NCBI GenBank assembly: GCA_022539475.1
Contig: VCMS01000052.1
Location: 168,321 to 232,320 of the forward strand
Length of the DNA: 64,000 nucleotides
Direction: 5' to 3'
From: Gracilaria domingensis
Lineage: Eukaryota; Rhodophyta; Florideophyceae; Gracilariales; Gracilariaceae
Shown here: piece after piece, positions 29,063 to 62,160 of the stretch
How the letters are laid out: every line of letters starts with the position of its first letter
Numbering within the stretch: position 1 is the stretch's first letter
Program-made: the position numbers and the translations under genes
Notes under the pieces: generated by a model
Told to the model about the DNA's origin: nothing
What the model saw: the letters and a program-made list of their open reading frames with translations, nothing else
The model's database searches: none

Positions 29063-29065
29063 AAC

Positions 29066-39930: not shown

Positions 39931-40055
39931 GTTTGGTCTTCCAATTGGTGGTGTTTTCTTTTTCTGCTGTCTGTCTTACCTCCGCTCCGGTTTCTCCCTT
40001 GCGGTTGGTATCCTCCGTGGCACGCTCTCGCTCCACCTCGCTCCTTTCATACCTC

Positions 40056-42825
40056 ATGGGTGATCGACCAGCTTCCCCGACGGGGTGGTCAATGACGTTC
40101 GAACGCCGTGAAGGCGGTGCTGAAGAGAGTATCGCTCCCGCCCTTCCCGATGTGGTAGACCACGGGGGTGGGACGGCGTCGTTTCAACCGAATTACCACG
40201 TGGTTGATTCTTCGCAGCCCTGTTTGCCGTCCCAGACCGGTACACCCGTGTCCTTTCCATCGGGCGCTGAGGCCTCCGTGGTGGCCAACCACTTTGTAAT
40301 GGAGGAGCCGCACGACTTTATAAAGGGATATTCCGCTTCTGAAGTTTCCCCTTCATCGGAGGCCAACCGCTCGGTCATCGAAACTGCTGTCGTCCCGTCG
40401 AGGATGTCCGGCAAGACCCCTGGGGTAGCGCGCGGCCGTGGCGGTGGCATCTTCAAGCCTAACACGCGGTCGAGTACAGGCTCTCGTCAAGACCCTTACG
40501 GTCGCGGTGGGGATGATTCTTATGCGGCCGTCGCCGGTCCGAGCAACATTAACCCTCTTGCGGTCGCAGGTACGGTGGAAGCTCAACAGCTGAATCCTCA
40601 TGACCCTAACAGGACGCACGGGCAGCCGCATGCCCACTATGGTGCACGCTTTGCCGATATCTCTTCCGAATTGGTCGCTCTGAGGAACTGGCCTTTCCAC
40701 ATCAGTTCCTCCTTCTGTCCCTTGCGGTTCCGCCAGATGGGTCTCACGCAGTATACTACGATTGCCCGTTGGGATTTTCGCCGGTTGGAAGCGGTTCCTA
40801 TGGCCCCTCCTCCACCACGCAAGGGCGAGAAGCAGAGCCGGTTCGGTCGACAACAGTGTTTCCACGCGCGGCAGTGGCACACGAAGTTTCTATACTACAT
40901 CCCCGTGGCCATCCCCGTGGCCATACCGTCGGATCTCTCCTTCATCCGCTGCGATGGGGAGGTCCACTACTTCCGCCGTTTGGTAGACATCCTTCACCGC
41001 TTGGACGAACCTGCTACACACATCGAGGTCGATCTGGAGTACGTCGCGTTCGAGCGCCCTTTAGATACCAATTACTGGACTGACCGTGGGAGGTGGGCGA
41101 CCGACGCGATGGCCGAGAGCCGTGTTCGTCACCGTAACAACCGTACGCGGACAATGTTCCGGTTCCACAACGTTGAGTATTGGTCACAGAGCGACCAGAA
41201 CCGCCGGGCATGGTATGTCAATCGACCTTCTTGGTGGGACCACTATGAAGTATGTCAGTGGCTGGAAGTGCCGACCCCTCCGGTACTTGCGTACTTTGGT
41301 AGTAGCATCTCCCTTGAGAGGAACAACGCATATGCCGTTTGGTCAGTCGCGCGCAGCGAGTGGGACGTTATGGTAGCTATCCTCGCCCTTCAGACGTCCG
41401 TGGAAGGTGTGACTTGGGACACGCGCTGCCCTGACAAGTCTGTCGGGATCAGCGGACGTCAACCAGTTGGTGGCATCTTCAACATTCCAAAAGATGTGGT
41501 TGGCGATATTTGTGCCATGGGGGCTCTCCAACATCGTGGAGGGCACCAAGTATACGGCGCAGCAGTTGGACGGCTACCTCACGGCGGTAAGTAACCACAG
41601 TTGGGGGCCTGAACAGGGTTGGGATGTCTACAACCCAGAGGTTCATAGCATCGTGCCTCTCAAACAGCAGCACATGGCTGGCGAAGACCCATTTGGTAAT
41701 GAAGATACCGTGATGGTGGGTGCCGAGAACTATGAGTCCCCCGCGTTGCCTCCGTCAGCACCTGTACAGGCCACTCCTCCCACCACCGTGGCTGCGCCTG
41801 TCCCAAGTGGTCCATCCAACCTTCAGGCGACTGCTCATCCTCCCGGACGGGCCGCCCAGAGGCCTCTTCGGGTTGGTTTTCAGTCGCTTCCGGTGAATCC
41901 GGTACCCCCTGGTGGTGATAGTGGCGTGATACGAAGCGCCCTGGCTCGTCTCAACCACGCCTCGATGGTGAACTTCAACCGTTCTGGTCCAAATGGCATC
42001 CTCACCGCTGTGGATACTCTCACCAACTTGCTCCTAGTGGTCGCTCACCACGAGCGGCGGACTAGTGAGCTGCGGCAGTTCCGCGACTACTTTCAGCGCA
42101 ATCTCTACCGTGAGGTGACAGCCTATGTTGGTCAGTTGAGCAACCTCGTGGAAGGCCACGCGCCGTTACATCGACCCCCTGTGGAAAGTTTCAACCGGTA
42201 CGCTCCTGCGTCGCAGCAGCCTGCGACCCCGATGGTAGGCTTTGGTGGCCTTGTTACGTATCAACCGCCTGGTGGACCTCCTGGTGCAAATCCTTCGGCA
42301 CCCTTCCATACACCGCTTGGTCCTCATAACGTTCCTCTTCTTCCAGCAAATACTGGGGCGGGAGCACCAAGTGGTTTCCAAACTGGTTTCCGTTCGGCTC
42401 CGCTTCCGTCGTCGTCCAGCACTCCGATGACACCTGCTGGTCCTGGACCTTCGGGAGTTGGAGCGCCTCCTGGTCTGACCCCTGGTGCAGGGCCGTCCAG
42501 CGGTCTTGCCCCTCCACCGACCTCTGGTAGTATCCCTCCGACTAGCTTGCCGCCTTCCTTCCATCCACCCACTGGTCCTGCGAACACCTTGCCGGTAGTT
42601 AGCAGCGGTACCCCCGCGGGGCCTACTGCTTCTGCTCCATTGCCAAGTGGTGGTGCGCCAGCGAGCTCGGCTAGCGGTGGGGGCGGAAGCTCCGCCGGAC
42701 CTATGTCGGTGTCCTCTGGTCGTGGAGGTTCTGCTTCGTCTCGCGGGACGTCCCGTGGACGTGGTCGTGGTCGTGGAACCGGTCGTGGACGCGGACGTGG
42801 CCGTGGGTCTTCCAAGGCCTCCTAG
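40056..42825 (+). pseudogene. Element A antisense ORF (convergent to pol), one frameshift
   Basis: ATG 40056 opens a plus-strand frame that runs to about 41515, where a single frameshift next to a G run (CATGGGGGCTC) moves it to the next frame, open to TAG 42823-42825. Total length is about 923 codons. The middle (WW near 41235, then PPVLAYFGSSI and VWSVARSEWDVMVAILAL) aligns with element C's WW, PPCLSYIGS and WWGLVAGEWAARVAAFLL, which indicates distant homology. The last ~230 residues are Pro/Gly/Ser-rich and end in an RGG-type tail (SRGRGRGRGTGRGRGRGRG), a feature often seen in RNA-binding proteins. No membrane segment is seen. It ends 153 bp before A's pol terminus, tail to tail. Only one lesion is present, although A's gag and pol are heavily broken. 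Confidence 0.75.
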
Positions 42826-42978
42826 GTTACCTCGTGGTTAGCGCTTGTGGGCCCGTCTTTGACTAATAAAGTGTCTTGTGTTGTGCGTTATGATCTCTTT
42901 CCATTTTCCTGTTAGGTTGGTTAGTTAGCATTCCATGTGTCGTTTGGCGTTCAACGGCGTAGACATCTTCCCCCGCCC

Positions 42979-45900
42979 TTAGCGACGCGTACCACGTGAA
43001 GCAGTACTAGTTGGTGCGGGCGTTCGCCCTTGTTTGCGCCAGAATCGGATGATGAAGTTGTTAGGGATATGAACAGGTGGTTCCATAGAGTCGTGCTCTG
43101 GCGACCATCCGTACCATCTTACCCTGCAGCGGATACCCTTTGTGGTGTGTTCGGGACCTACAATGGTGACAATAGCACACTCCTGAGTGTCTACTAGAGG
43201 GTGTGACTCTTCCGCTTGGTCGTGGGGTGCGCGGCTCTCCGTGGGTGGTGTGACTTGTTGGTCTCGCCGTGGCTCGACCTCCTGTGCCGCTTGGGTCGTG
43301 GGGTCAGCCGTTACGGCACTGATGGAAGGTTGACCGCTCGGCCGACTCGTCAGAGGAGGGGCTATGGGAGACGTTTCTTCCCTTTGCCCTTCCCTCTGAG
43401 TTGGCTCACCTATTGGTTGTGTATGCGGTGCCGTCGTTTGTGCGACTTTGGAAATCCTGTCGATGGAGACGGTGTTCTTCAAGCCATCCATTATGACCGT
43501 AGCGGTATGCTTATCGGAGCGAATCACCTTATATGGTCCCGTCGACTTGGGTAGTATTTTAGAGTTGATATCCTCCTCAATGCGGATGTCTTCTTCCAGC
43601 TCCGCTGGGGTCGGTCGCTTACCTTTTGGTGGTACGTCGAGGAAGACCATGTCTCCTGCTATCACTTTGGTTACTCTGCTCACCGTTCGGTCGTTATCTG
43701 CTTTATGCCGTTCTTGCGCTGCTGTCATTTTGACTTTGGCAGCGCCCAAAGCGGCGCGTAACTTCCGGAGTGTGTTTCGCTTGACCTTCGCAGGTGTGAG
43801 TGTCCCTGCCGCTTCCGAGAGGTCGGGTCCGGGCTGGACGATAATGCCATGTGGTGTTCGTGAAAGTACCAGGTCAAACGGGGTTGTTTGGGTGACCCTG
43901 TGGACCTGGAGGTTATACGCATATGTCAATGGTTGGACATATTCCGACCATGTGGTTGGGGTCTCTTCAACATAGTGCCGTAGCCGTGCCACTAGGGTCT
44001 TAGTGAACCGTTCCACTTGGCCGTTTGTTTGCGGATGATAGGCCGTGATAAAGTAGTGCTTCACCCCTAGCATGGTGCAAACCGCCTCAAAGAACTTAGA
44101 AGCTAAGTTCGAACCATTATCGGTCAGTAGGTACATAGGAGCACCGTATGGGTAGACCCAGTTCTCCAAGAAGGCTGTCGCCAGTGTCGTTGCCGTTTGG
44201 TTCTTCAGGGGTATGGCCCTGGTGAGCTTCGTGACCCTATCGGTTATGAATACTAAAGCGAAAGCCCTCCAAGGTCTTTGGCAGGGGCCCCAGTATGTCG
44301 ATCGCGACGAATTCCAGGGGCCCCGCCGCCGGGAATAGCTTCAGGTACTTCCTGTGCTTCGTCACACCACCTCGGGTCTTAATGCACGAATTGCACTGAG
44401 CCCCATAGGTATATACGTCGTTAGCCATGTGCGGTCAGTAGAATTGCCTCTGAAGGGTATAGTACAACCGCGTGGCTCCAGGGTGTCTCGAAAGCCGTGT
44501 GTTGTGTGACAGATACAACACCCTTTGTCTTAATGGCTCAGGTACGACCTTCTGGAGAGCTCCGTCCAAAGGTGAGCGTCTGATGAGGTACCCATTGTGG
44601 TCGACGCCGAACTGAGAATCCTTCTTTCCTAGTACGTCAGCGAGCGTTTTGCACAACCTATCGGCCGATTGTTCGCGTAGGAATTCCTCACGGGTGATTG
44701 GAGCGTGTTCCCCTTCTTCCACAGGGAGGAGAGTCTCCACTACCACTTGGTACGTACTGTCATCATGCCAGTATCCCTTCAGAACTTTCTTTACCTCGTG
44801 GTTCGCTGATTCTATTGTAAAACATGGAATGTCGTCGTCCACAGGGTCAGTGTCCAATCCTTCAGTATTCAACCGGGACATTGCATCCGCCACTCGGTGC
44901 TTGACCCCGGGGCGGTAATGCCCATCGTACTCAAACTACGAGAGTCTCAGACTCCATCGGGCCAGACGACCCGATGCCTCCGCCAAACCTAATATCCACC
45001 TCAAGGAGTCATGATCCGTTCGAAGCGTGAAGCGCACACCATATAGGTAAGGACGTAGCATGAGCATACTCCAAACAACCGCTAGGCATTCTTTCTCCGT
45101 TACGGTGTAGTTCTGCTCTGCTTGGTTCAGAGCTCTACTCCAGTACCCAATTGGTGCGAGCGTGCCGTCCTCCTGTTCCTGCATGAAGCAGCAACCTATT
45201 TGGGCGTCCGACGCGTCTGTGTTCAGCGTATACGGGAGTCCCGTTTTGGGCAGTGCCAGTACCGGTGGGGAGAGAAGCGCTGCTTTCAGTGTGTAGAAAG
45301 CCTCTACCTCGTCTTCTTCCAAGTGGTCAAAGTGTGTGGGTTGCCTCTTCTGCAACCTCCAGTTCAGGGGTGCAGCTATCTTTGCAAAACCCTTAATGAA
45401 CCGCCGGTAGACGTTACATAGACCTATAAAGGATCGTATGTCCGTCTGCGACGTAGGGAGCTTCGTTTCCTGTACCGCTCGGATATTCCGTTTGGTCACT
45501 TCGAGTTTCCCGGGGCTCATTGTACGCCCTAGGTACTCTACCTCTTGGTTGAAGAACATACACTTGCGTAGTTTGAGGGTCACGCCTGCCTCCTGTAGCA
45601 ACCGCAATACCACTTGGACGTGTGAGAAGTGTTCCTCAATGTATCGCGAGTAGATTACTACGTCATCTATATATACCAATGCGGTTGTCCACTTCACCTT
45701 AGACAGTATGATGTCTAATGCTCTTTGGAAGGTAGCTGGGGCGTTTCGCAAACCGAACGGCATACGTAAGAAGCGATACAGGCCTGCATGGCATGTAAAC
45801 GCAGTCTTATCACGATCACCCTCTGGTATTTCGATCTGCCAATAGCCGCAGTTCGCGTCCAGTGTGGTGAAGATGTTCGCATCTCCTAGGGAGTCGATGC

Positions 45901-47245
45901 ATTCATCCATCCTCGGGATGGGATATGAGTCCCTCACCGTTACGGCGTTAAGTTTTCTGTAGTCAATAAAAAACCTCATATGGGTCTCTCCTGGTTTTTG
46001 GACTAGCACTACAGGGCTAGCCCATTCCGAGTTTTCCGGCTCTATAACCCCCTCGCGGAGCATCCGCTCCACCTCCTCCAGCTCTACCTCACGGGCCTTA
46101 TGTCCCGCGCGGTATGGCTGTTGGTGGATGGGACGTGAGTCCGGTTTGAGGTCAATCCTATGCTGGGTGGCCTTAATGGCTCCCAGGTTACCAGACCACA
46201 TGGTACTGAATGGCTCCAAGAGTCCGAGGATCCGAGCTCTGAGCTCTTCTCCTTCAATTCCTATACTCTCTTCCCTTTTCCAATTGGTCACTGGGTCGAG
46301 CTCCAGTTTCGGGTCTTCTCGCTCAGCTAGTCGCTGCACCATATGGTCTGTTTGCGACGAACTGGCACTGCCTCCCTTCTCCTTAGCGTCCACGACCTCG
46401 TGTGACCATTGTGGTTTTATCGTAAAGATCGTACGAGGAGCCGGTAGGGCCAGACCAATTACGGTGTGCTTTGACAACTTAACCGGGCGGTTGCTGAAGT
46501 TACTCAGGTAGACCTGAAACGGTTTTGTCGGTATGTTATCGACTATACCATTTGCCATTAAGGTCATATGGCGTTCAGCCAACCGTCAGTGGTTCTGAAT
46601 AGATAGCAGGCCAGGTTGTTGGCATGTCACCTTCACTACTAAGTGGTTCATGGGCGGTATCGTTACCGCCTTTGCCAGTCACACCTTGCTGGAGAGTGTA
46701 TTTTCCGGAACGGGTTGGCGGCGAATGCTTTTCTCCGTGGGAGATGCACCCTTGTGGTTACCAACGATGGCGATACGGGGACCATTGTGGAACAGCACTA
46801 TTTTGGAGCGTGGGAAAATCGCCCTGACGTGCTGGTCTATAAAAGTCGTCCCGAGGATACAGTCTGTTGCCAGTTGGTTAACGACGATGAAACGGACTCG
46901 GACCTTCATGGTGTCAATCAATACCATTATGGTAAGCGCTCCCATGACGGTTAATGATCTGTTATTGGCGTCAACCAGTGGGTTAGTTAGTGTACATGGC
47001 TGAAGCTTATTAAGTTGTCTGTTAGTTAGTAGTTTGGCATTCACCAGATTAGGTCCTTCCCCGGTGTCCACGACAGTGACGCATGGTAACAAGTGGTTAG
47101 AAGTAAACCCGAGGGTGACGTTTACCTTATAGTTACTGTGCTTGAGGAAGCATATGGGTTCGGTGCCATCCATGAGGCTCTCCTCTCCTGTAACCAATGG
47201 GTAATTGCCCATACTTGCACCACTTGGTTCTGGAAGGCCCTCCAC
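42979..47245 (-). pseudogene. pol: Element A protease and pol remnants
   Basis: Minus-strand pieces in order are: protease (47245-46679, VVDTGEGPNLV), RT and RNase H (46582-44936, with VYIDDVVIYS and NTDASDAQIGCCFMQ), an inter-domain piece (44893-44435), integrase N-part (44428-44237, CNSCIKTRGG and FVAIDILGPL), and integrase core plus C-terminus (44169-42979, LLTDNGSNL, TNGQVERF). The end is a chromodomain-like segment (RCRVRWYGWSPEHDSMEPP). Breaks are stops at 46679, between 46679 and 46582, at 44936 and at 44435 (TGA replacing the Trp of the usual FYWP motif), plus a frameshift near 44240. Sequence is clearly diverged from B and C, so A is a separate subfamily. Confidence 0.88.
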
Positions 47246-47757
47246 CTTCGGACAGTTGGGGAAGGCCTCTATCCGAACTGTTCGGCGTTTTCCGCATGCG
47301 GGGCGGGATCCGTTTGGTCTTGCTCCGTAATGATGTGTACCGGATGTGGTGTGGCTCCATTGGGGCGCGCATTTGCGTGTCCCATGCCTGCGCTCCGCGC
47401 TGTGGGCTCAAATATATCCTGGTGGTTCTGCTGGCAAGCAGTCAGGAGAGCGTTCCTGTTCTGCGGAGCCACACTTGGGCACGCTGTTGCCAAGTGGTGA
47501 GGCGATAAACAGAATCAACAGAGGAGATTACCGGTTGTAGAGTCCTTCATCGCGAGCGACGACACGCGTGATGGGGGACGACCTCCAGTCGTTGCTACAC
47601 TCCGTTGCTGCGGGGGTGGTCCTCTATCACCATATTGGTTGAATGGCACCGCTAGAACCGGACTGACCGGCGTGGATGCCTAGGGTGATGGAGTTGGGGT
47701 TTGCTTCGAGGGGGGCTCGCTTGACACCGAGCTAGACCAAGAGGTGTTACTGCGCGA

Positions 47758-49413
47758 TCAGGTGTTTGTCGGTGCATGCACCAAGTGGACGGGATGAACC
47801 TCCGAGACATATTGTGAGGATGCCTCATCCGTAGTGGTCTCCTCTTCCTCTACGTCAAACACTGACCGCCTGGTTCTTCCTTTCTCCTTCGATGGTTTGC
47901 CAAGTGGTGCGGAGTCTTTCCTGGCGCCTGACCGAATGGTGTCGCGTAGTCCCTGTGCATGTCGGGCTAGTGCGTTGTAGTCGACCGTGCGGTTGGTGGC
48001 TAGGTAGTTACGAACCTGTGATGGGATAGATTTCGCCATGTTGTCGGCGTACATCGATTTCAACCTCTTGGTAGTAAAGAAACTTCCACAGCGGGAGGCT
48101 AATGCCCATAGAGAGCGAGCGAATTCCAATTTGGTTTGTCCCGCGCGCTGGCGGTACGCAAGCACCTCTGCGTACGCCTCCTGAATTACCTCATCGGTCG
48201 CGTAGGTTTCCAGTAGAACGTTAACCACCTGTGGGTATGTCGTCAACATTTCCGTTGGTATTCGTCCACCGCCATGGTGTTTCCTTGGAGGCGGCTACTG
48301 CGCAACGCTCTAGATTGACCAGTTAGGTAGAATTGAAACAACCATATGGCTGCTGCCTCTGAAAACCCATTTTGGTCACAAGCGATCTTGAACCTTTGAA
48401 GAAAATCAATGATCGCGATAGGGTCGTCCCCGCTAAAGCGAATCTCACCCAATTGGAAACGAAACTTCCTATGATGCTTCGTTATCTTCTGAGCTACCTC
48501 TTTGGTATACTCAGCATGTCTGTTCTCCAACCTATAGGTGCGGTAGTCAACCGCTCTGGTGAATAAATCATTCAGCGGTGTAAGTACCTCTAGATCAGTC
48601 TCCTCGTCGGAAGTTGAGTCCGAATCATTTTACCGTTTGGTTTTACCCTTGCGGGAGTTCTTCCCTCACTTCAGGCGAGAGTCCTTCCTCTTGCGTCTAG
48701 AACCTTTACGGTCGTCGTCTCCTGACGAATCCGAATCGGTGTCTGAGCACGAAGAATCCGAGTCCGACCGGCGACTCTTCCTCTTTCCCATTTTGGTCTT
48801 CTTCTTCTTACCAGTTGGTTTGCGTCGACGCTCGTCTCCTGAGCTTGATGAATCTCCACCAGGGTCTCCACCGCTTGGTCCTGACGGAGCTACACCAGTG
48901 GGTTGGGGGAGGTATACGTACCTCAGGCCCTCCATGCCAGCAGGCTTTGCCCCTTTCCCCATGCGGTCGATAAATCCTTCACCAATCTGTTGTGTAGGAA
49001 GGTTAGGATGGAGAATACGAAGTGGTTTCGTGGCCTCTACAGCAGGGTGAGGAGCATGCTTCATGAGAGAGGCCTGGGCCACCATCTCAGGTTGAAGCTT
49101 AGCTCCCTGCTGCTGCAAAGCCAGCATAACCAATCGGTCAATGTGGCCTCGTACCTCGTTCTCGAGGTACTGTAACACCACCACGGGTACCTTGTCGAGA
49201 ATCTCCTGAGAAGCTCGATCTCTACCACTCGGGTGATCTCGTTCAGGTCCAGCCGCGGCCCGACTGGGACCTTAATTTGGTCTACCACTGGGGTTGCTAC
49301 TGGAGCGGGCTCTTCCGTTGCGGAGCCTGCTCTTCCGTCCACTTAGTCAACCGGGGAAGGGTCGAGGGGCCCCCAGCCTCTCGGTCTACCTTCTTCCCTT
49401 TAGGTGGGCGTTC
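47758..49413 (-). pseudogene. gag: Element A gag, 3' portion (split by element C)
   Basis: Gag continues here from its 5' fragment at 61337-61456 across the C insertion. Pieces are: a frame carrying RLTKWTEEQAP up to 49297; 49342 down (VVDQIKVPVGPRLDLNEI); 49184-48666 (coiled-coil-like, then a Ser/Asp/Lys-rich run); 48530-48243 (FRFQLGEIRFSGDDPIAIID, the capsid-like core equivalent to FSGxDPILxLDFL in B and C); and 48249-47758. At least three frameshifts and a stop at 48666 separate them. The nucleocapsid region between 47758 and 47245 is too decayed for a zinc knuckle call. Confidence 0.75.
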
Positions 49414-50386
49414 TGTGGGGCAAACTCGGAAGAGTGAAACCCACCAGACTGTCCGAAGGTCCGCTCTCGTGAGAGATGGCAGACCAGTGACAGAGCCCTC
49501 TGTACCACCGTAACTCGGTTGTAAGGCCGAAGTGGCACTGGCTATACCTACAGAGGTGCTAGGCCACGTGGTGAGGAAACGATGAGAAACTCCAGAGATG
49601 GGGTGGTATCGGCAACGATGAAACACGACCAACGACAGGTGTAGTCCCGAGAGGGAAAGCAACAGAAAACAACAACCAAACAACACCCACACGCGACGGG
49701 TAGGGCCTCCTCGGCACTGTGCCCGGAGCGGGGCGAGATCCTCCAACGGTAATGCACGGGTTTCCGTAAACACGGCAAAACTCTATACAGAGTCGGATCA
49801 CTTCGTAATCTAGTCCTATGCCTCCTCGGTAGGACCCTCAGGTCCCGACATCAACGACAGATGTTCCTCAAAGGTACCGAGAGGGTAGGACCACCGTAAC
49901 CAGACGTGGCTATACTCGCGAGAGTGATAACCCACGTAGGCGGTTGGCGCCAGAGCCTCACTCGTGTAGAGTCCACTCAGGAGAGCGCTACTCGACAAAG
50001 AGTTCACTTAGAAGTGCTCGGGTTGACTTTACAAAGGTGCTCGCGACGACGAGGTCGAGCTCACCTAAGTAGGTCTAAACTAACTATGTACACGTGGTGC
50101 ACACCCGCAGGGGTCCGTACACGTGGCTAGCCCAGTTTCAGGCACCTCAGGTGCACTACCTATTGTCCCGTAATATGCACACACACGGTAGTGTAGTACA
50201 CGCGTCCACCTAGCGGTATTGGCCAGCAATGGCAACCCTGATTACAGGTAACTGTGGGAAAGCCATTCCAAAAGTAACCGCCAAAATTGGGTCCAACTCA
50301 TAACTCTTCGAGTGCATCCTCGTATCACTCCCCTGAGTATATGAGGCGCATCATCCTGATAACCACGCAAAATGCGTTGCTCTACA
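49414..50386 (-). repeat. Element C 3' LTR (left copy)
   Basis: Plus-strand ends are TGTGGGGCAAACTCGG and GTTGCTCTACA. Read on the minus strand it begins TGTAGAGCAA, the same ten bases as element B's LTR. GTATATGAGG near 50337 on the plus strand is a possible TATA-like site about 130 bp upstream of the antisense ORF start. Confidence 0.9.
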
Positions 50387-50399
50387 TCTCCCCCTCCTT
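50387..50399 (-). other. Element C polypurine tract
   Basis: The minus strand reads AAGGAGGGGGAGA directly before the 3' LTR. This is the standard plus-strand DNA primer site of an LTR element. It also lies in the leader of the plus-strand antisense ORF. Confidence 0.8.
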
Positions 50400-50465
50400 A
50401 GAGCCGAGAACGACTTCGAGGCTGAAGTTTTGTGCGAAACGCAAGTACGTAAATACGTCACAATC

Positions 50466-52319
50466 ATGAGCGGTACCAACTCCTCGGTTTCTATACCTCG
50501 CAAGCGCGATACACACTCAAGCGAACAGAGTATTCAAGTATCCGAACTCGATCACAGTACATCATCTGTCATTCCGATGAACCCGAATCAGTTTCCTCAT
50601 CACCCGACGGGTCAGGCGAGCGCGTCGAACTACCCTCAGCCGGGTTCTGCGACGGCTCCACTGCCTCAGTCTCAACCGATGGTCCCGGTGAACGTTCCGT
50701 TATGGAATTCAGCGCAAGCGATGCCGCTGATGGCGAACCAAGCTGGTTGGATATCGAAGGAATCTCTCGCAGTACGCGATCCACTCCGTGATGAGTTTGC
50801 GTTCAGCCGTGCACCGTGGTTTCATCCGGTAGCTGTTAACGATGACACTCTCCTGGAGTCGTATGCCGAAAACGGCTTCCTACCGGGCGGTCTGCCGTTA
50901 GCGGTAGTGCAATCCCCAGAATGGAAAGTTCGTATAGCGATCGACCCGATGCTCCTCCGGTACGATACCCGCGAGGGTGAGAACCTGAACACCGCGCGCG
51001 CTGAACACGCGAAGTTGGCGTACAAGAGACTCAGTCGAGTGCACCTCGAGCACCTGGTTCCACCGTCATATGGGTTCGATACTCCGTTCTACCGTACTTT
51101 CGGTGAAGTCCGATATGGAGACAACTTGGCGACGTTCGACCATGCGCGGTACGCTGGCGATGGCCCGACCACATCGAGGTTGATGTTGTGCTGGAATCGG
51201 CCCATACTCCGAGCGGAGTTTCGTTATCTTCGCAAGAACGCTTCCCAGGGTGGGTTCGTCAATTCCATTCGGTTTGAGCGGAAAGCTCGTTCCCGTCATG
51301 GGTATCTGATTCCGTACCCGAATATCGAGACCGAGAGGTACAGACCGCAGGCCTTTGTTGGACGGTTTCCTCCTCTACCAGATTGGTGGCGTGATGTGGA
51401 GGTACCCAAAGGGTGCTTTGCAGAACTGCCTCCGTGCTTGAGTTACATCGGCTCCCGATTGATCAACGATCCGCGTTCAGGATGGTGGGGTCTCGTAGCC
51501 GGCGAGTGGGCGGCACGCGTAGCAGCGTTTCTCCTCTGGGAGGCTTACGACAACTACCGTGTTTGGTATATTCCGCCGATGCTTCGCAGCATTATCCGCT
51601 CGCTGGATTTGCACACTCCCTTGGGGTCCGAAGAGAACGTGGATGAGATCCATTACATCTTGGATGTTATCGATGGAGTCGATTGGGAAACGGTGCCCCG
51701 TTCGCAACGCGGGAAAGGTCCTCGTCGTCACTACGACCGCTCACCCGGTAGGAGACATCCCACAGCAGGAGATTTCGTGTATTACGACCCATGGGAGGGT
51801 ACGATGACGACTAGCGCGTATGCCGAGTGGGCAGCGAACCAGCCACGGTCGATTCCAGACAGTCACCCCGTTGGGTTCATGTTCAGTGACAACTGGGTCG
51901 CCCCAGTAGATCTGGATGATCCGAACATGGATACTGGTGGAGAGGCGGCTGGAGCACTCGTCGAGATGAACCAGGAGTTGGTGAACGACCTACCGGCGGC
52001 GAATCAGGTGTTGCACGCCAGCGGCGGGGTACCCCAGGCTCCTGTGGGTTGGAATGTTCCGACTCAAGCGAGTGTTCCGGTGGTGGGTCCGGCCCCTGTA
52101 GCGGCTACCGTTCCTTCGGTCCTTCCAGCCCCGACAGCTCCGGTCGCTCCGGGAGATTCTCCGGCGAACATCGCGATGTTGCGCGCCAGTCTCCAGAACG
52201 CTGGAATTATCGTGCCCGATCATCTCACCACTATGGCAGGGATACTGGCTTACGCCGTTCCGCACCCTTCGCAGGGTCCCTCCGGTAGCGGCGGTGCCGG
52301 TCCCTCATCGGGGGTGTAA
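50466..52319 (+). CDS. Element C antisense ORF, intact (617 aa), unknown family
   Basis: The frame is open from 50430, but the ATG at 50466 (MSGTNSS) matches the start of the homologous ORF in element B and is preferred. The 617-residue protein has a disordered Ser/Gln/Pro-rich N-terminus (residues 1-95), a conserved globular region (about 105-480) and an Ala/Pro/Val-rich C-terminus ending GSGGAGPSSGV. The core contains SRAPWF (~115), RTFGEVRYGDN (~210), NRPILRAEFRYLR (~244), a WW pair (~307), LPPCLSYIGS (~321) and EWAARVAAFLLWEAYDNYRVW (~347). No signal peptide, transmembrane helix, zinc knuckle or nuclease motif is visible, so it is not an Env-like glycoprotein. It lies opposite pol, starts 80 bp from the 3' LTR edge and ends 370 bp from the pol terminus. 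Transcription from or through the LTR is inferred. Confidence 0.85.
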   Translation: MSGTNSSVSIPRKRDTHSSEQSIQVSELDHSTSSVIPMNPNQFPHHPTGQASASNYPQPGSATAPLPQSQPMVPVNVPLWNSAQAMPLMANQAGWISKESLAVRDPLRDEFAFSRAPWFHPVAVNDDTLLESYAENGFLPGGLPLAVVQSPEWKVRIAIDPMLLRYDTREGENLNTARAEHAKLAYKRLSRVHLEHLVPPSYGFDTPFYRTFGEVRYGDNLATFDHARYAGDGPTTSRLMLCWNRPILRAEFRYLRKNASQGGFVNSIRFERKARSRHGYLIPYPNIETERYRPQAFVGRFPPLPDWWRDVEVPKGCFAELPPCLSYIGSRLINDPRSGWWGLVAGEWAARVAAFLLWEAYDNYRVWYIPPMLRSIIRSLDLHTPLGSEENVDEIHYILDVIDGVDWETVPRSQRGKGPRRHYDRSPGRRHPTAGDFVYYDPWEGTMTTSAYAEWAANQPRSIPDSHPVGFMFSDNWVAPVDLDDPNMDTGGEAAGALVEMNQELVNDLPAANQVLHASGGVPQAPVGWNVPTQASVPVVGPAPVAATVPSVLPAPTAPVAPGDSPANIAMLRASLQNAGIIVPDHLTTMAGILAYAVPHPSQGPSGSGGAGPSSGV

Positions 52320-52688
52320 GATGACCAGCAGGGCTGGAGGACTTGGTCCTTAGTATAAGATAGAAACAGTAAAACCATCTAGTGGTAACTTTCCCTTCAC
52401 CCTTTTGCCTGTTCTCCACGAGCTTGATCGATCTTCGATTACTTCTTCACTCACACTGTGTTCAAGTGTACTTCACTTCTTTGGTGCTTCTTCTACTCTA
52501 ACCGTTTTAAATCGGTACAACCGGCATTTCGGTATGCTCTTCTTTCTTTCTTCTCACTTCCTCTAGTTCAGTCTTCACCGCTTCATTGGTCTTCTTCCTT
52601 CATTCATTCCCACACAGGAGGGGTCAACTCTCCATTCTGAGTCTTCCGCATCGCGGTATAGTTGAAAGCTCCTCACCGGGAAGGGTTC

Positions 52689-55600
52689 TTATCCCACCTG
52701 GGCTTGGTCCAGGTTGGACGGCAAGGCTGACCAAGTGCGACGGTGGTATGAAACGATCTTCGACCTAGGTAGGTGCTCGACCGGCTCCATGGTGTCCTCC
52801 TCGGCGGAGTAGCCATACCATCGCACTTGGTACAGTACCGTCCCATCGGGGTCTACAACATGACGTACGATACGTTCGATCACGTATTCCTGCGGGTACA
52901 CCTCGGTGTTTTACTGCTCTCCTTCACCCATTGTGGTTTCGTACCTTCGAGGGTGGCGAGGTGGTGGCCGGCTAACCTCTAGAGGGGTTCCTCTTGGACT
53001 TAACCAGTCACGACTCACTAGGAGTTCCTCGCTGCGCGACAACCACAACTTACGCCAGGAGCATCCAATCTTCAACCTGAAAGGTTCTTCTTGAAGTACT
53101 CTCCTTCTTGAGTCTGACGAGCTTCGACTCGTTTTGGTTGAGCTTCCGACCGTCCAACGGTAGCTTCGGGATTCTGAGCTCCCTCTTGCTATCCAGAAGG
53201 ATCGTCCGTGCGACGGAGAACGGGCAGGGTCTCGCTCGTGCGCCATGGAGGCGGATTGACCAATCACGCTCCATATCGCGGCCTTCTGGTTGGCCAGGCG
53301 GTGGCACGTGTGAGCCACGAGTTACCCTAACAGGTGTCCGTTCGCCTACGGTTGGCGACCGTACATCGTGCACCGTGCACGTGTGGTACTCGCGCACGCG
53401 ACTTACTGTCAGCAGTTCCCCGCGTCGGCGGTGCTTTCCATACGTCACCACGTCACACAACGTGTTACTCTCCACTTGGGTGTGTCATGAGTCCTCTGCC
53501 ACGCGGCGTGGGTGCACCATCGACGTTTTCCAAACTCGTACTTCGTACTTCACCTTTCCAAGGTTGTTTTCCCAAGTAATACGCGGGTAAGTACGACTTC
53601 TCGTTTCCTCATACCACGGCGTGGTTAACACCGGTCGGTAACATTGAGCTGATCTACCGCTTGCGGTTCTGCGTTCTCCGGAAAGCCCGGGTCTACAGAT
53701 ACTGTCTTCTCCGCTCTGCGGGTGATGACCTCACTCAGTTGTGGTGTTCCCGACGGGGTTACGTTATCCACAGCGGTGTGTACCCCCTGGGTGGGTCGTG
53801 TCGTTTCCAGCGCATTGCTCAACGAACTCGACGGAGTATCACCACGAGGTACAGCGCCTCGGCGCACCACAACGCTATCGGTAGAGACCGCGAGATTGGT
53901 TGCGGTACCTTGCGACACAGTGTGACCGTGCGACGCCGGTGTAACGGGTTCCGTACTTTCCTCCCCCTCCTTAGGCGGTGGCACGGGAGCCACGACGTCC
54001 GGTGGGGGGTCAACTCTAGTTGAGTTTTCCTCTTCGTCTCCCGCAACGGGTTGTGCTACCCGCGTGGGTGATTCTGACTTCGGTAGATCCGATAAGCCGC
54101 GATCAGGGCGGAGAGTCGCAGGGCGCGAAGATACGACCTGTTCGTCCCCTGTAGCTTCACCCAGTTGGGTGTTAACGTGAACGTAGGGTGGTGGGGCCAG
54201 CGCGACACGGTCTAACGATATCCGTTCGTGGAGATTATTGATATCCAATACTACGGTATCGTCCGTGACGGAAATAACCTTGTAGGGTCCTTCCGCGATA
54301 GGCGAGAGCTTGTGGCGGCGTTCCTTCTCCGGATTATAGTATTCTTGCGGAGAAATACCATATCGTCTGGTTTGACCTTTGGTAATGGGGTCTTAACCTT
54401 CGCATCGAAGTTGCGCTTATAAGCGGCCTGCGCCTTATCCATCGCTGTGCGAGCGACCGGTACCATTTTGGTTAACCAATCCTTCCAAGCGTTCCTGTAT
54501 AACCCAACAGACGGGTACGTAGAAAGCGTTTCTTGAGCCTCGATTGCAACCGGTGGCGGTACTCTTGACAATACCAACTCAAAAGGTGCTAGCTTCGTTA
54601 CCCGGTTGACTTGGGTGTTGTACGCATACGTAATAGCGTCCGTATACAAATCCCAAAATGCGTTCAGCATGGTACGGTTAAATCGTTCTACCTGACCATT
54701 TGTTTGGGGGTGGTAGGTGGTCGTAAATAGATTCTTGACACTCAAGATCCGACAGACGTCCTGGAAAAACTTCGACGTGAACTGTGAACCGTTATCTGAT
54801 AATAGATGAACCGGTGGACCGTACACAAAGACCCAGTGGGTGACAAAAGCTTGTGCAACCACGGTGGCCGTAATCCATTTCAGCGGGACTGTCCGTACCA
54901 ACTTAGAGAACCGATCGGTGATAACCAGAAGGTATCGATTACTTCTTGCGGTTCTGATCAATTCACCTAAGATATCGATAGCGATAAACTCCAAAGGAGA
55001 CCGTGCTGGGAACAGCGTTAACTTCCTCGAGTACTTACGAAGTTTCACGTTATATTTAGCGCACTCGGTGCAAGAGCGTCGTACTGCGTAGCAGTCCAAT
55101 GCCATTGACGGCCAGTAAAAATCCCTACGCAGGGTCAAGTATAGTTTTCGACCTCCTGGGTGGGCTCCTACCTTCACATAGTGTGTCCTGACCAACACAC
55201 GGTTTTGCAGCGAGTATGGGACCATAATTTGGATATACGCTTCAACCAACCTAACCAGGTACCCCTGATCGTTAACCTGAAAAGGTATACGATCTCCTCT
55301 ATTGAGACGAGCGCGAATTCGCGTACAAAACTCATCCGTTTGCTGTTCTCGGATCATCTCCTCGGGAGTGATGGGTACAAAAGATCCAGTCAAGGGATCC
55401 AACTTCTCAGAAGTGAGCAGGATGTCGTCACAGATGTCATCCGACAAAGATTCGACCCAACCTGCTTGTTCTTCCACCATAAGGCATGGTATGTCCAGAT
55501 CATCAACTGGTGCCGCTTCTGCATTTGTTCCCAAGCGGGAGAGTGCATCTGCCTGCAGATTCAACGTTCCTTTTTTGTACGTAACTGTGAAATCGAACTT

Positions 55601-58047
55601 CGATAACCTCAAGCGCCAACGCATCAAGCGTCCTGATGGTTCCGAGATTTCCATGAGCCATCGGAGAGATGAGTGGTCCGTATGTACCGTAAAATGGTTG
55701 CCCATAAGATATGGCCTCAGTGTAGTTAGAGCCCATACAACGGCTAAGCACTCTTTCTCCGAAACTGAGTAGTTACGTTCGTGTACGTTCAAGGATCGCG
55801 ACCAGTATCCAATTGGATGTCTCACGCCGTCTTCCGTGACCTGAAACAGGGCGCAACCAATCTGGTGTGCACTGGCGTCAGTGTCTACTTCGAATGGAAA
55901 TCCTAGCTTAGGCAAAGCCAAGATTGGCGGTGACGTTACTGCGTCAATTAATGCCGAAAAGGCAGACGCTTCCGCGTCGCCTAGGGGTTCCAGTTGAACT
56001 GGTTGACCTTTTCTCAAAAGGTGGTAAAGGGGGGTCGCAATATCTGCGAAGTTCGGGACAAAACGCCGATATACATTACAAAGACCCAGAAAACTGCGGA
56101 GTTCCGTTTGTGTCGTAGGGTGTTTCGCTTCCTTCAGCGACTTCACGCGAACTGCGTCAACTGAGAGCTGTCCAGGTCGAATGATATGCCCTAGGTATTT
56201 GACAGAATCTGTGAAGAACTCGCACTTCTTGAGTTTCAGCGTAATGCCCGCGTCCCTGAGGACTCTCATGACGTCCCGGACGTGTGTTAAGTGGTCATCA
56301 AGGTTATCGGAGAACACGATGATATCGTCAAGATACACCAAGCAGGTCTTCCACTTGAATCGAGCCAAGAGGATATCGATAGCACGTTGAAACGTAGCCG
56401 GTGCGTTGGTTAATCCGAACGGCATTCGTTTAAACCGGTACAAACCTTGGTGGCACACAAAAGCAGTTTTGTCCTTATCCTTTTCACGGATCGGAACTTG
56501 CCAGTATCCCCAATTGGCATCCAAGGCGGTGAGCACTGTAGCACTCCCAAGCGAGTCAATGTATTCGTCCATCCTGGGTATTGGATAAACGTCTTTGACG
56601 GTGACCGAATTTAGACGACGGTAATCAATACAGAATCGCCATGATCCGTCCGCTTTTGGAACTAGCACCACGGGTGAGGCCCAAGCGGATTGAGCCGCCT
56701 CTATGACGCCAGCGCGTAATATCTTCTCAACCTGAGATTGCTCTTCTTCCCTAGCTTTGGGACCAGCCCGGTATGGGTGTTGGGAAATGGGGCTAGTACC
56801 TGGAAGTAGGTCAATACGGTGTTCCGTGATTCCAATTGTCCCGAGGGATCCATCCCACATGGGTGTGAACTCCCTCAACATTTCTCTTAGCTTACCTCTA
56901 TGAGATTCAGGTACATGATCAAAATTCAACTGTTCCAGTTCCTTGACAGGGTCTGTATCTTCCGTTCCTGGTGGCAACGCTTTACCCTCGGTGGGTGCCA
57001 GCGATTAGGTAACTTCGCTCGCCGGGGTATCCGATGCGGTAAAAGCGGTTTCCGCTGATCCCTCCCCCTCCTTAGCATCGGTTATACCGAGAACATCCGC
57101 AACGGGTATCTTCGTCGGTACGATAGCAGCAGGGTGTGGGAGAGTGGTACCAAGGATTTGGTTTTTAGCTAACCACTGTCGGGTTGTGCCAAAGTTGGCG
57201 ACCAAAACTCTGAATGGTTTGTCGGATTCCACCGAGATTACTCCGTTCGCCAAAGCGAGTTGCTTCTGATCATACAATGATGGCAATGGTTGTACCACAC
57301 GTAGACCAGACTGCTTAGTAGTTATGGTTACCCAAACTTGGGATTGCGCAGGGATTGCGATGGCATGAGCCACATGGAGCTTAGATGATACCGGGTCGAC
57401 GGTTGGAACTTCCTGTGCAGCAGGGAGCGGGACGCGCTTGCGTGTAGCTCTCTTTAGCGGTTTCCTTATAATCGGTATTTCGGAACCATCATCCATGGTA
57501 ACAACTCCAGCTCGAGGTCGAATCGCTTCAACAAAACGATCACAAAAGTCACAACCGAGTATCACCGGTGCGGCAATGCTTTTGCAAACCATGAAATCCA
57601 CTTTAACCATACAGGTTCCTAATCGTACCATGAGAGGTATGTACCCAAGAGTACGCAACGGGTTATTGTTTGCATCCGCGATGTCCAAACCTGGACCATG
57701 ACGAATTTCATCCCGTAGCGCGGGTGGCACCAACTCAAGGTGAATCAGGTTCGGTGCAGCTCCTGTATCCAACACAGACAACTGTCGAACCATGAACTGG
57801 TTAGACAAGCCAAGATCGGCATAAACTTTGTAGTTTCTCTTGGCCATCACAAGAACTCTTTCCGGAATACGGAGATTACGGGACCGTATCCACGGACGAC
57901 GTAGAACCGAAAGGTGTTCTGAGCTCACGTCAGTTGTAGCCGCTATCCTTGAAAGGATTCTAACAGCTGGGGAGCGAAGCTGTGACGTCTCGGGCGCCTT
58001 TAACTTCGGCTCGGAAGGCGCCCCTCCCGTAGGAGAAACTCCCGAAG
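52689..58047 (-). pseudogene. pol: Element C protease-RT-RNase H-integrase-chromodomain
   Basis: The frame is -1 relative to gag and has no ATG before the protease domain. Protease spans 57928-57005 (LSVLDTGAAPNLI); TAA at 57005-57007 separates it from the in-frame RT-RNase H-integrase stretch 56977-54251. RT has VYLDDIIVFS (~218 residues in). RNase H begins near FEVDTDASAHQIGC. Integrase has CTECAKYNVKLRKYS, AIDILGEL, LLSDNGSQF and TNGQVERFNRT. Compared with element B, about 14 residues are missing after NRTMLNA (near 54660), an in-frame deletion inside integrase. A frameshift near 54335 leads to 54248-53625, then further broken frames, and finally the chromodomain (52901-52689, VLYQVRWYGYSAEEDTMEP). 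Two or more lesions make it non-functional as read. Confidence 0.9.
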
Positions 58048-60219
58048 TCAGTTTTTCTGAACGGGGCTCACCGAATTCCGTGCGTGAACTCCGTTCGGGG
58101 GGCCTAACTGAACCCCATGCGTGGGTACTTCGCCTTGAACCTGGTTCGAAGGTGCCTGTGCCGGAACGGAGGGCTGAGCATAGACCGGAACCGGTAATCC
58201 CAGTTCAGCTCTGGCCTTATCATATTCCTTTCGTGGAACAGATTCCTTTTTCTCGGGCGTGAGGGCGTCGTAATACGCAATGATTTTCGGCCTGTGCGAC
58301 GGCGGAAATACGCACTGCGTCGATACGTGATCTGGAAGGTAGCACTGGTAACATATGACCGAGGCCGGTTTGTCGCGAGGGCGATTGTCCACTCGACGTT
58401 GTGGTGCTGTGTCCTTCCACCCTGGACGGTTCAGACGCGACGAATTGTTAGCGTAAGGCAGCGGGGCTGCAGGCACCCGGACACCTTGGGCATACAATGC
58501 GGGGTCTTCTTCCGTGCTCGGAATCGAGGTTGACGGCAGGTCCGTATATCCGTAAGAATCGGGGTTACTTCCGATGAAGTGGACGTTATCAGCATCACCG
58601 ACAGCGGTTTCACGTCGCAAAACCGACATCGATGGTGACGAACTCTCCGCGAGTAGCGCTTTCGAGCGGCGCTGCCCCGGGTTGCGGGCTCGATACGTCT
58701 CTCCTTCCGCCTGGGCGTAATTAACCAACTCTAGGTACGTCATTCGGCGTTTTTCCTCGCGTCGGCGAGCGACCAACGACCGAATGGTGGGGTCCAAACC
58801 ATCAACAAACATGGTACACCGCTCCTGTGCGGAATACACATTACCACATCGGTGAAACGCTTTGTTCAACCGCGTTGAATAAACCGTTTCAGATTCTCCA
58901 CTCTTCTGTCTAGTGTCGCGAACAGCAAGAGTAGCACTGTAAATCGCGTTGGAAGTCGCGTACGACCTGAGAAGGTAGTTCACGGCTCCCGGCCAACACG
59001 TGACTCCTCCTTCCGAGGCTCTCGAGGTTCCTCGAACTGAGTTGTACTGATCTTCCGCAGTCCCTGTTAGGAAGTACGGCAGTGCCACATATGCCTGTGC
59101 TTCACTCATACCGAGTATATCGGCCTCCTGGACGAACCTGGCAAGGAAATCCAAGATAAGGATAGGATCTGTCCCCGAGAACTTCCTTGTTTCAAGGGTA
59201 ACATTCAACCTTCGAATGTAGTCCTTCACCTTACCGGTTCCTCGCGAGGAGCGATTGGAAGTAACATCTTCCAACCGATAATAGCGGTACGACAACAGCT
59301 TTGTGTAGAGCGGGTCCGTCGGCTTTAACTCTTTGAGTCCCAAGTGGCGCCGTCCTTTCACGTGTGATCTCATCACTGCCTGAGTAGACTGCGTCGCTTT
59401 CGACCGTGTCGAACGTGACCTATGACGGTTGTCATCACTATCAGATGAATCTGACGAACTGTCTTCAGTCATGCCGCTCGAGTCAGAGCGCGATGAATCC
59501 GAATCATAGTGAACTCGTTTTGGGTGTCGACGTTTCTGCTTCACCGAACGATGGTCTTCATCCGCAGATGGATTTCCTTGAGGAACCTGTGCGTCCACAG
59601 CTTCATCCATACGGATTGTATCCTCCAGCGTTTCCAAGCGCGAACGAATTCGACCGATATCGGTGCGCATTTCCTCGACAAATGCCCGGTACTCCGTGAC
59701 GAAGGCGTCTGGGGTACCCAGATTTTCCATAATGGAATTCACGTCCCTTCTCAGAAGACGTAAGTCTCCTGAGACATCCCTCACCTGGGTATTATCAACC
59801 TGCGTCCTCAACGAGGTAACATCCTGTAGGAGTTCCACGTGAGCAGCGTGATTAATATCCAAGCGGGATTCCAACCTAGCCAACTCGGCTACGGTAGCAG
59901 CGTTAGGGTTAACCATGGATGGTGTCTCAACGACGGGTTGAGCAGAACCCACGTTTTCCTTAGGTGCTTCCGTAGCTGAGCGCGTTCTCCGGGGGCGGGG
60001 TACGACCTCAAGAGGTTGCGCCTCATCTGGGATAGACCGGGACGTCGGTGGAACGGGTGGAACCCAGCTGACGACCGCGCTGAACCAGCTCGAGAACCTC
60101 GAGGCGGTTGCGGCATACTGGAAACCAGTAAGCAATCTGATCCAGATGATCCAGTTAAACTCGTACACGAGTCTCCAAAGAACAAGAAAACTCAATAAAC
60201 CTTCTCGGTAAACCACCAC
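58048..60219 (-). CDS. gag: Element C gag, open frame
   Basis: The frame is open over 723 codons from a GTG at 60219. The true start is uncertain because the first ~45 codons are hydrophobic and unlike element B. An ATG-started frame next to it (MPQPPRGSRAGSARSSAG) resembles B's N-terminus better, which suggests a small frameshift near 60050. Then follow a Pro/Arg-rich segment, a coiled-coil-like region (after MVNPNAATVAEL), a Ser/Asp/Arg-rich run and the capsid-like core (GRRHLGLKELKPT, FSGTDPILILDFLARF, CTMFVDGLDPTIR). An intact CCHC zinc knuckle (CYQCYLPDHVSTQC) precedes the tail ending VQKN. It would form the particle and bind element RNA. It is the best preserved gag of the three. Confidence 0.85.
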   Translation of the reverse strand: MVVYREGLLSFLVLWRLVYEFNWIIWIRLLTGFQYAATASRFSSWFSAVVSWVPPVPPTSRSIPDEAQPLEVVPRPRRTRSATEAPKENVGSAQPVVETPSMVNPNAATVAELARLESRLDINHAAHVELLQDVTSLRTQVDNTQVRDVSGDLRLLRRDVNSIMENLGTPDAFVTEYRAFVEEMRTDIGRIRSRLETLEDTIRMDEAVDAQVPQGNPSADEDHRSVKQKRRHPKRVHYDSDSSRSDSSGMTEDSSSDSSDSDDNRHRSRSTRSKATQSTQAVMRSHVKGRRHLGLKELKPTDPLYTKLLSYRYYRLEDVTSNRSSRGTGKVKDYIRRLNVTLETRKFSGTDPILILDFLARFVQEADILGMSEAQAYVALPYFLTGTAEDQYNSVRGTSRASEGGVTCWPGAVNYLLRSYATSNAIYSATLAVRDTRQKSGESETVYSTRLNKAFHRCGNVYSAQERCTMFVDGLDPTIRSLVARRREEKRRMTYLELVNYAQAEGETYRARNPGQRRSKALLAESSSPSMSVLRRETAVGDADNVHFIGSNPDSYGYTDLPSTSIPSTEEDPALYAQGVRVPAAPLPYANNSSRLNRPGWKDTAPQRRVDNRPRDKPASVICYQCYLPDHVSTQCVFPPSHRPKIIAYYDALTPEKKESVPRKEYDKARAELGLPVPVYAQPSVPAQAPSNQVQGEVPTHGVQLGPPNGVHARNSVSPVQKN

Positions 60220-60344
60220 GTTAGCGGTTCACGTTCAAAAGTTGTCAACCTCCAAAACTCTAAAGAGTCTCTGATCGTTGTCAGAAAACGGTGATCCGTC
60301 AACAATCAAGTCAGTTCCACGACAGTGACCTAAAACGGTTCTAG

Positions 60345-60356
60345 GTCGGGAGACCA
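60345..60356 (-). other. Element C primer-binding site
   Basis: The minus strand reads TGGTCTCCCGAC, three bases inside the 5' LTR, and continues CTAGAA. It is identical over 12 bases to the sites of A and B. Confidence 0.75.
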
Positions 60357-60359
60357 CTT

Positions 60360-61331
60360 TGTGGGGCAAACTCGGAAGAGTGAAACCCACCAGACTGTCC
60401 GAAGGTCGCTCTCGTGAGAGATGGCAGACCAGTGACAGAGCCCTCTGTACCACCGTAACTCGGTTTTAAGGCCGAAGTGGCACTGGCTATACCTACAGAG
60501 GTGCTAGGCCACGTGGTGAGGAAACGATGAGAAACTCCAGAGATGGGGTGGTATCGGCAACGATGAAACACGACCAACGACAGGTGTAGTCCCGAGAGGG
60601 AAAGCAACAGAAAACAACAACCAAACAACACCCACACGCGACGGGTAGGGCCTCCTCGGCACTGTGCCCGGAGCGGGGCGAGATCCTCCAACGGTAATGC
60701 ACGGGTTTCCGTAAACACGGCAAAACTCTATACAGAGTCGGATCACTTCGTAATCTAGTCCTATGCCTCCTCGGTAGGACCCTCAGGTCCCGACATCAAC
60801 GACAGATGTTCCTCAAAGGTACCGAGAGGGTAGGACCACCGTAACCAGACGTGGCTATACTCGCGAGAGTGATAACCCACGTAGGCGGTTGGCGCCAGAG
60901 CCTCACTCGTGTAGAGTCCACTCAGGAGAGCGCTACTCGACAAAGAGTTCACTTAGAAGTGCTCGGGTTGACTTTACAAAGGTGCTCGCGACGACGAGGT
61001 CGAGCTCACCTAAGTAGGTCTAAACTAACTATGTACACGTGGTGCACACCCGCAGGGGTCCGTACACGTGGCTAGCCCAGTGTCAGGCACCTCAGGTGCA
61101 CTACCTATTGTCCCGTAATATGCACACACACGGTGGTGTAGTACACGCGTCCGCCTAGCGGTATTGGCCAGCAATGGCAACCCTGATTACAGGTAACTGT
61201 GGGAAAGCCATTCCAAAAGTAACCGCCAAAATTGGGTCCAACTCAAAACTCTTCGAGTGCATCCTCGTATCACTCCCCTGAGTATATGAGGCGCATCATC
61301 CTGATAACCACGCAAAATGCGTTGCTCTACA
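60360..61331 (-). repeat. Element C 5' LTR (right copy)
   Basis: Same ends as the left copy. Differences by eye include one indel near 60406 and substitutions near 60468, 61082, 61134, 61152 and 61247. It is followed on the right by the CGTTC duplication. Confidence 0.9.
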
Positions 61332-61336
61332 CGTTC

Positions 61337-61456
61337 CTTCCGAATTAGGTCCTCCGGGTTATCCAACACCGGATGAGACACTGAACCTCGTACGGGGTGA
61401 GTATTTGGTGGAGCGTTCGGCGCTCTTTTCGGGTGACGCACGCCCCGTTTCTCCAT
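61337..61456 (-). pseudogene. gag: Element A gag, 5' fragment
   Basis: ATG at 61456 starts MEKRGVRHPKRAPNAPPNTH. About 40 codons remain before the element C target duplication. When C and one copy of CGTTC are removed, the frame continues into 49408 with a Lys/Arg/Pro-rich stretch. This shows that gag of A was the insertion target. Confidence 0.75.
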
Positions 61457-61572
61457 TTAGGCGACTGGTGTCGGAGCAAATTGCTTCGGCAACGGGAACC
61501 AAACTACTCGGCTATCTGGTGATTTCCAAATACTCCCTTTCCAAAACCACTTGGTTAATCCACAAATTCTAA

Positions 61573-61584
61573 GTCGGGAGACCA
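61573..61584 (-). other. Element A primer-binding site
   Basis: The minus strand reads TGGTCTCCCGAC followed by TTAGAAT, five bases from the 5' LTR. The same 12-mer occurs in elements B and C. Confidence 0.75.
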
Positions 61585-61589
61585 AAATA

Positions 61590-62160
61590 TGTGGTATTGG
61601 CGCTCGGTGCGAATTGTGAGTGGGAAGCCCTGCGTGGGCTCGACCCTGCAGAGGAAGGAAACGCGTGACACCTAATAGGTCGGCTGCACGCGCCGTTGGA
61701 TATAGTTCACGGTAACCAAGTGGTAAAATCGCCTGGACTGGTGTGCGGCAGGCACGTATCACCTTCGAGGTCAGCAAAATAAATAGAAAACTACTAGACT
61801 TACTGATTCGTGACTGTAGAACCGAACTGGTGTCGAATTAGCCTAGTTGGTGCTTTACTTTACCATTTGGTGTGAGAGGTTGGCGTCTCGGGGGTTTAGT
61901 ACACCCGAGCGCCCCTCCGGATCTCACGGGCCTACTGCCACGTGGGCCACCGGGAGGTGCATTTGTGGTGCACCACCCCGGCCACATATCCACACTACCT
62001 AGTAAATACTAATTCTGAATTAATGAAAATAAACTAATTAGTCCTTGCCAAGCCTGCGCTTAGCGTCCCACGTGGTACAGTAGACACACGTACCCGGGAG
62101 CCCGTGACGTCACCACTTGGTCTTGTAGAGCCCCCGTTGATCCGGCCGAGCTATACTACA
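61590..62160 (-). repeat. Element A 5' LTR (right copy)
   Basis: 571 bp, TGTGGTATTGG...CTATACTACA on the plus strand. It is followed by TGTAC at 62161-62165, which matches 26677-26681. Confidence 0.9.

Follow-up and report, generated by a model that had tools for sequence, protein, structure and literature searches.

Why should a retrotransposon of a red alga carry a large gene that runs against its own gag-pol? The question is raised by three LTR elements, A, B and C, in a stretch of 64,000 nucleotides from Gracilaria domingensis (the window). An earlier note on this DNA had proposed that each of the three has, in the interval from the pol terminus to the 3' LTR, one large ORF on the opposite strand that is convergent with pol, and the coordinates and LTRs agree with this description. 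We conclude, with a probability of roughly 85%, that this antisense ORF (aORF) is a selected, protein-coding accessory gene of a chromodomain-containing Ty3/gypsy lineage.

The arrangement is clearest in element C, which is oriented along the minus strand and is bounded by a 3' LTR at 49414..50386 (-, 973 bp) and a 5' LTR at 60360..61331 (-), both delimited by self-BLAST and by reading of the sequence. The LTR pair (973-bp) is 99.4% identical, and reading of the sequence also provides a 5-base target site duplication (CGTTC), a polypurine tract (50387..50399, -) that abuts the 3' LTR on the side of the aORF start codon, and a primer binding site (PBS) that abuts the 5' LTR. The gag frame (58048..60219, -) contains a CX2CX4HX4C knuckle recognized by eye and was without match when scanned against Pfam, which assigns reverse transcriptase (RT), RNase H and integrase to 54251..56977 (-). 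The RT frame has 917 codons in the window copy and 1536 in many other matches in the genome. The chromodomain (Pfam PF00385, E 5.7e-11) lies at 52692..52910 (-), convergent with the aORF. In 27 of 28 copies (L001-L030) it occupies a separate short frame of 73-117 codons behind a stop, the motif being undetected in the 28th, and because of this separation the chromodomain may be joined to pol by frameshifting or splicing, or may be a small ORF of its own. The aORF of C extends over 50466..52319 (+), starts with an ATG at 50466 and encodes 617 residues without interruption, exactly as had been claimed from the letters of the sequence. The open frame around it is found at 50430..52319 (+). Could such a frame be open by chance? 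When the internal region of C (9973 bases) was shuffled 300 times at order 1 and scanned in six frames, the longest open frame had 316 codons (mean 184), as compared to 660 codons for the C aORF frame, a length far outside chance, and a chance open frame was therefore rejected. Only 79 bases separate the edge of the 3' LTR from the ATG of the aORF, and 369 bases lie between the stop codons of aORF and chromodomain, so that aORF and pol run tail to tail without overlap. Within the C aORF of the window the minus strand contains no ORF longer than 91 residues.

The three elements are nested rather than adjacent, as A encloses both of the others. Element A (26682..62160, -) is split by B and C and has 571-bp LTRs (26682-27252 and 61590-62160) with 91.2% identity and, by eye, the target site duplication TGTAC. 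Element B (28208..39927, +, ends accurate to a few bases) has LTRs at 28208-29059 and 39077-39927 that are 97.7% identical. B sits between the 3' LTR and the aORF of A, and C sits in the 5' internal part of A. LTR identities of 91, 97.7 and 99.4% suggest that A inserted first, then B, then C. For the aORF of A (40056..42825, +) start codon and end are as given in the earlier note, to which one frame change has to be added; relatives of it with a single open frame are present in two other loci (L032 and L034). According to the coordinates, the leader between 3' LTR and ATG is some 1.0-1.1 kb long in A once the B insertion is subtracted, versus the 79 bases of C. Two lesions, a frame change and an in-frame stop, interrupt the aORF of B (37357..39035, -). 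Its first frame offers in-frame ATGs at 39035, 39023, 38918 and 38858, and of the earlier assignment, 38918-37204 on the minus strand, the strand and the ATG stand but the end does not, since the last frame stops at 37357. Pfam places RT, RNase H, integrase and a weak chromodomain of A at 42979..46582 (-). The chromodomains score 42.6 bits in C and 26.6 bits in B, above the Pfam cut-off of 25.1, and 14.8 bits in A, below it; the chromovirus order of RT, RNase H and integrase followed by a chromodomain is thus found with the reservation that the chromodomain of A stays under the cut-off. A PBS beginning with TGGTCTCCCGAC is common to A, B and C (61560-61590, 29060-29085 and 60300-60359, respectively), and despite this common PBS the similarity between A and C in RT and RNase H is only about 58%. 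Elsewhere in the window, positions 1-25000 contain ORFs of 546, 527 and 323 residues (9641-11281, 14157-15740 and 16610-17581) that Pfam left unmatched at E up to 0.1.

Are the three antisense proteins related to each other? Homology had been asserted for all of them, and for B and C it is clear, with 46% identity over 211 residues. The A protein is distant (22-30%), with 22-25% identity to C (25% in BLASTP), and its inclusion is carried by profile comparison. With hhalign, a profile of 12 C- and B-type proteins matches the A type at 98.3% probability (E 1.1e-14, 241 columns), a link that depends on an A profile built from a thin alignment of three sequences. Control profiles of gag and pol from the same elements reach probabilities of 0.2-0.3%, and this difference between match and controls argues that the proteins of A, B and C form one family. 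In the same comparison, descent of the aORF proteins from gag or pol of these elements was undetected.

The family extends well beyond the window. All copies discussed here come from one genome, searched as an assembly of 77.9 Mb, in which at least 71 matches to the C-type aORF (51 without in-frame stop), at least 150 to the B type and at least 75 to the A type were found, together with two more aORF groups, represented by the database relatives P0001 and P0007. For 50 of the 71 C-type matches listed an RT is found 4.5-6.6 kb away, in 46 of these 50 at 5.71-5.77 kb, and invariably on the opposite strand (50/50, same strand 0/50); the control on the upstream side yielded one RT, and 21 of the 71 are without a listed RT partner. 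An RT partner is likewise found for 9 of the 69 matches listed in the P0001-like group, at 5.48-5.66 kb and again always on the opposite strand. Among fetched loci, LTR sequence and aORF are collinear in 30 of 30 for C, with the chromodomain reached in 29, and LTR and pol end accompany the aORF in 27 of 30 for A, the remaining three being the window copy, which is interrupted by B, and two loci without detected pol end. The arrangement also has predictive value. An RT that is 91% identical to that of C was chosen and the site of the ORF predicted from this RT alone; in this one test the predicted site, in a C-like subfamily, contained an antisense ORF of 685 residues that is 46% identical to C. 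Of a noncoding anchor from the 3' end of C, adjoining the ORF, 40 occurrences were considered, and in all 29 anchors checked (23 with an aORF among the matches listed, 19 of them stop-free, and 6 that were fetched) the ORF is present, broken or not. The six copies read out of the 17 other anchors all contain small indels, which could reflect decay or assembly errors. Other elements of the genome thus have the ORF as well, and its proposed retention across diverged chromodomain elements holds for A, B and C and for further subfamilies.

Selection was assessed from the substitutions among copies. In the coding frame pN/pS is about 0.22-0.31 overall. For 30 C copies the ratio is 0.228, in a set ordered by protein score, a choice that favours conserved sequences and lowers pN; all 30 have kept the ATG, and 4 of the 30 contain in-frame stops. 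For 21 C copies taken from the noncoding anchors the ratio is 0.282, the set consisting, out of 40 anchors, of 15 copies and the six indel-bearing ones, which alone give 0.43. The value for 26 A copies is 0.305, and the window copy of A compared to these 26 gives a dN/dS of 0.257 at a pS of 0.18. A dN/dS near 1 was looked for among copies, and ratios well below 1 were found for C and A. Divergence among 28 C copies is 0.018 at synonymous sites, 0.012 in the noncoding spacer, 0.009 in part of the LTR and 0.004 at replacement sites. As synonymous sites diverge more than the spacer and replacement sites less, selection acts on the protein and not on RNA alone. For the chromodomain of C (70 codons) the same 28 copies give a pN/pS of 0.47. 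The antisense frame that has the wobble position in common gives 0.20 in the 30 C copies, similar to the aORF, and polymorphism alone leaves the coding strand unnamed.

Constraint is combined with fast divergence. Between C and C2 the aORF proteins are 46% identical, gag 51%, integrase 78% and RT 91%; between C and B the values are 46% for the aORF, 54% for gag and 85% for the RT domain. The aORF therefore evolves at about the pace of Gag and far faster than RT and the other enzymes. In the C-like subfamily (L067, L068, L069) the contrast between genes of a single element is steep, with 91% for RT and 46% for the aORF. The Gag-like pace suggests that the protein may have a quickly changing partner, for example Gag or a host silencing factor.

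What kind of protein is encoded? A Pfam scan of 13 family members at E up to 10 gave no credible match (HMMER filters drop most hits above about 0.1), TRP28 (PF04195) being unmatched as well; two weak matches, at E 0.14 and 0.15, were considered chance, and one piece of the A protein matches at E 0.079. PHROGs gave no match for five of five proteins. A structure model based on 16 sequences predicts a core of 387 residues with a pLDDT of 89 and a pTM of 0.89, flanked by disordered tails and a short helical end, and Foldseek found no credible match for it in the PDB or among viral structures. The product is probably soluble, with a folded core of some 390 residues. A PRKR motif in C, C2 and P0006 is a possible candidate for a nuclear signal, no more. 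The A type has a long tail rich in proline, serine and glycine that ends in RG repeats (41413-42825; L032 1567-4323), which C and C2 do not have.

How might such a protein act? A promoter in or beside the U3 end of the 3' LTR would drive transcription inward, against gag-pol, and the 3' LTR of C likely carries such an antisense promoter. Given an inward promoter of its own, the aORF product would be supplied independently of genomic RNA. Tentatively, and at not quite an even chance, we envisage a protein that works in trans, on the cycle of its own element, as a regulatory or host-interaction factor, a role modelled on what has been proposed for GENE23 of Grande, the TRP28 proteins of Retand and retroviral HBZ.

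The two main alternatives for its role correspond to suggestions of the earlier note, a particle or transport protein and a silencing antagonist. The protein could be a particle component or a partner of Gag that participates in assembly, choice of RNA or nuclear import of the particle. RG-rich tails are of a type seen in RNA-binding proteins, so that the tail of the A type would fit such a function, as would the Gag-like divergence (46% vs 51-54%). However, the proteins have no similarity to gag, 13 of the 16 examined have a pI below 7, and the antisense position decouples the aORF from gag expression, all of which leaves a role in the particle somewhat unlikely. It could also be imagined that the protein counters the host silencing that convergent transcription would invite, since convergent genes could yield double-stranded RNA. 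High copy number and rapid divergence with constraint kept would fit a silencing antagonist, but there is no link in sequence or fold to known suppressors and the pooled pN/pS ratios stay below 1, and we regard this function as unlikely. A more far-reaching proposal, which we consider distinctly unlikely, is that a new family with an unsolved fold had a single origin in an ancestor of algal chromoviruses and diversified with them into many subfamilies, its members being dedicated silencing antagonists or controllers of element expression; encoded antisense, they would let the element test and disarm the host before gag-pol is expressed.

The earlier note had also considered regulation of gag-pol through antisense RNA. 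In its strict form the transcript would be the working product, pairing with gag-pol RNA and tuning the element, and the ORF would be incidental. Transcripts could overlap in a convergent layout, and micropia yields noncoding antisense RNAs (PMC7264820). Nevertheless, pN/pS of 0.22-0.31 in the aORF frame, long open frames across several subfamilies and an identity of 22-46% across the protein core make this very unlikely; regulation by RNA alone is unsupported, as the constraint falls on the reading frame. A role of RNA and protein together would be compatible with this constraint. Capture of a host gene by the elements, perhaps repeatedly, is most improbable. LTR elements are documented to take up host genes, but captured genes are usually sense-oriented (PMC7264820), and the aORF occupies the same place and strand in all subfamilies tested. 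Furthermore, no host source, which would have spoken against a gene of the elements themselves, was found among the relatives listed from 5.77 billion database proteins. There are at least 13 such relatives, of which two are named, each with no annotation beyond that of a hypothetical protein of Gracilariopsis chorda (BWQ96_10156 and BWQ96_03215). These are probably element genes themselves; the main part of B-type copies is 69-72% identical to one of them, and both observations suggest a gracilarian red alga as host. The chance of an env-like gene is negligible, since in spite of the position between pol and 3' LTR and of fairly hydrophobic 19-residue stretches in two of the 13 database relatives (P0004, 1.86; P0011, 1.63) the aORF lies on the opposite strand, where env would be expected in sense, and C, C2 and A are devoid of a transmembrane-grade segment, their maximal 19-residue Kyte-Doolittle means of 1.15-1.49 being below the usual threshold of 1.6.

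How does a protein-coding accessory gene of this kind compare to known antisense genes? HBZ of HTLV-1 is likewise a protein encoded by the antisense strand of an LTR element, but it differs from the aORF family in position and domains, and the likeness is drawn without a claim of homology. Its antisense promoter lies within the 3' LTR (PMC7264820; PMC11963269). Closer in layout are Grande, RIRE2, Retand, PvRetro13 and Boty, for all of which an antisense ORF has been described in the interval from pol to the 3' LTR (PMC7264820). The family found here falls into the same positional class, aORF-3R, which is defined by this interval and by the strand opposite to gag-pol. With the Retand lineage (TRP28 of Retand, RIRE2) it has in common a large antisense ORF in this region, which in Retand is retained in most copies and described as of unknown function (PMC11963269; PMC7264820). 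However, Retand elements are non-chromoviruses of flowering plants (PMC11963269), whereas B and C have a chromodomain, so that membership in the Retand lineage, which would call for a non-chromovirus pol without chromodomain, was rejected. TRP28 (PF04195), a Retand trait present in 97% of Retand clusters, is unmatched in the 13 family members scanned here; the region between pol and LTR measures 2.9-6.6 kb in Retand, with tandem repeats in about half (PMC11963269). Gene23 of Grande is another accessory gene on the antisense strand at this place, and its product is reported as nuclear and made from its own promoter (PMC7264820), whereas the present family is known from sequence and is set beside GENE23 by description. 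The brtn gene of Boty-like elements has a fungus as host and is likened here by layout. Zhao et al. 2011 is the work reportedly associated with brtn. As an antisense gene of a Ty3/gypsy element of Botrytis cinerea whose gag-pol has a chromodomain, it shares the combination seen here (PMC4227169). The idea of an unfamiliar antisense family in chromoviruses is therefore upheld in one half only: the protein family seems new, but the layout does not, given brtn and its chromodomain gag-pol (PMC7264820; PMC4227169). Chromoviruses have been reported from red algae (PMC3605345), and among the literature matches listed, which lie largely outside subscription papers, there is no report of red-algal LTR elements with antisense genes or of this protein family. 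Judged by the descriptions of known systems, the protein family seems new and so does its host lineage, and novelty is confined to these two because the layout had already been described, even together with a chromodomain in Boty.

The function of antisense genes in LTR retrotransposons was still called unknown in a review of 2020 (PMC7264820) and a study of 2025 (PMC11963269). The family described here adds an independent-looking case from a red alga beside those from flowering plants and a fungus. Within a single genome it offers hundreds of matches, of which many have open frames, several subfamilies, a confident model of the core and protein-level selection that can be measured, features that make the role of antisense genes testable by work on expression, structure and interactions. 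The family can also serve as a marker in annotation, for example for hypothetical proteins of Gracilariopsis chorda.
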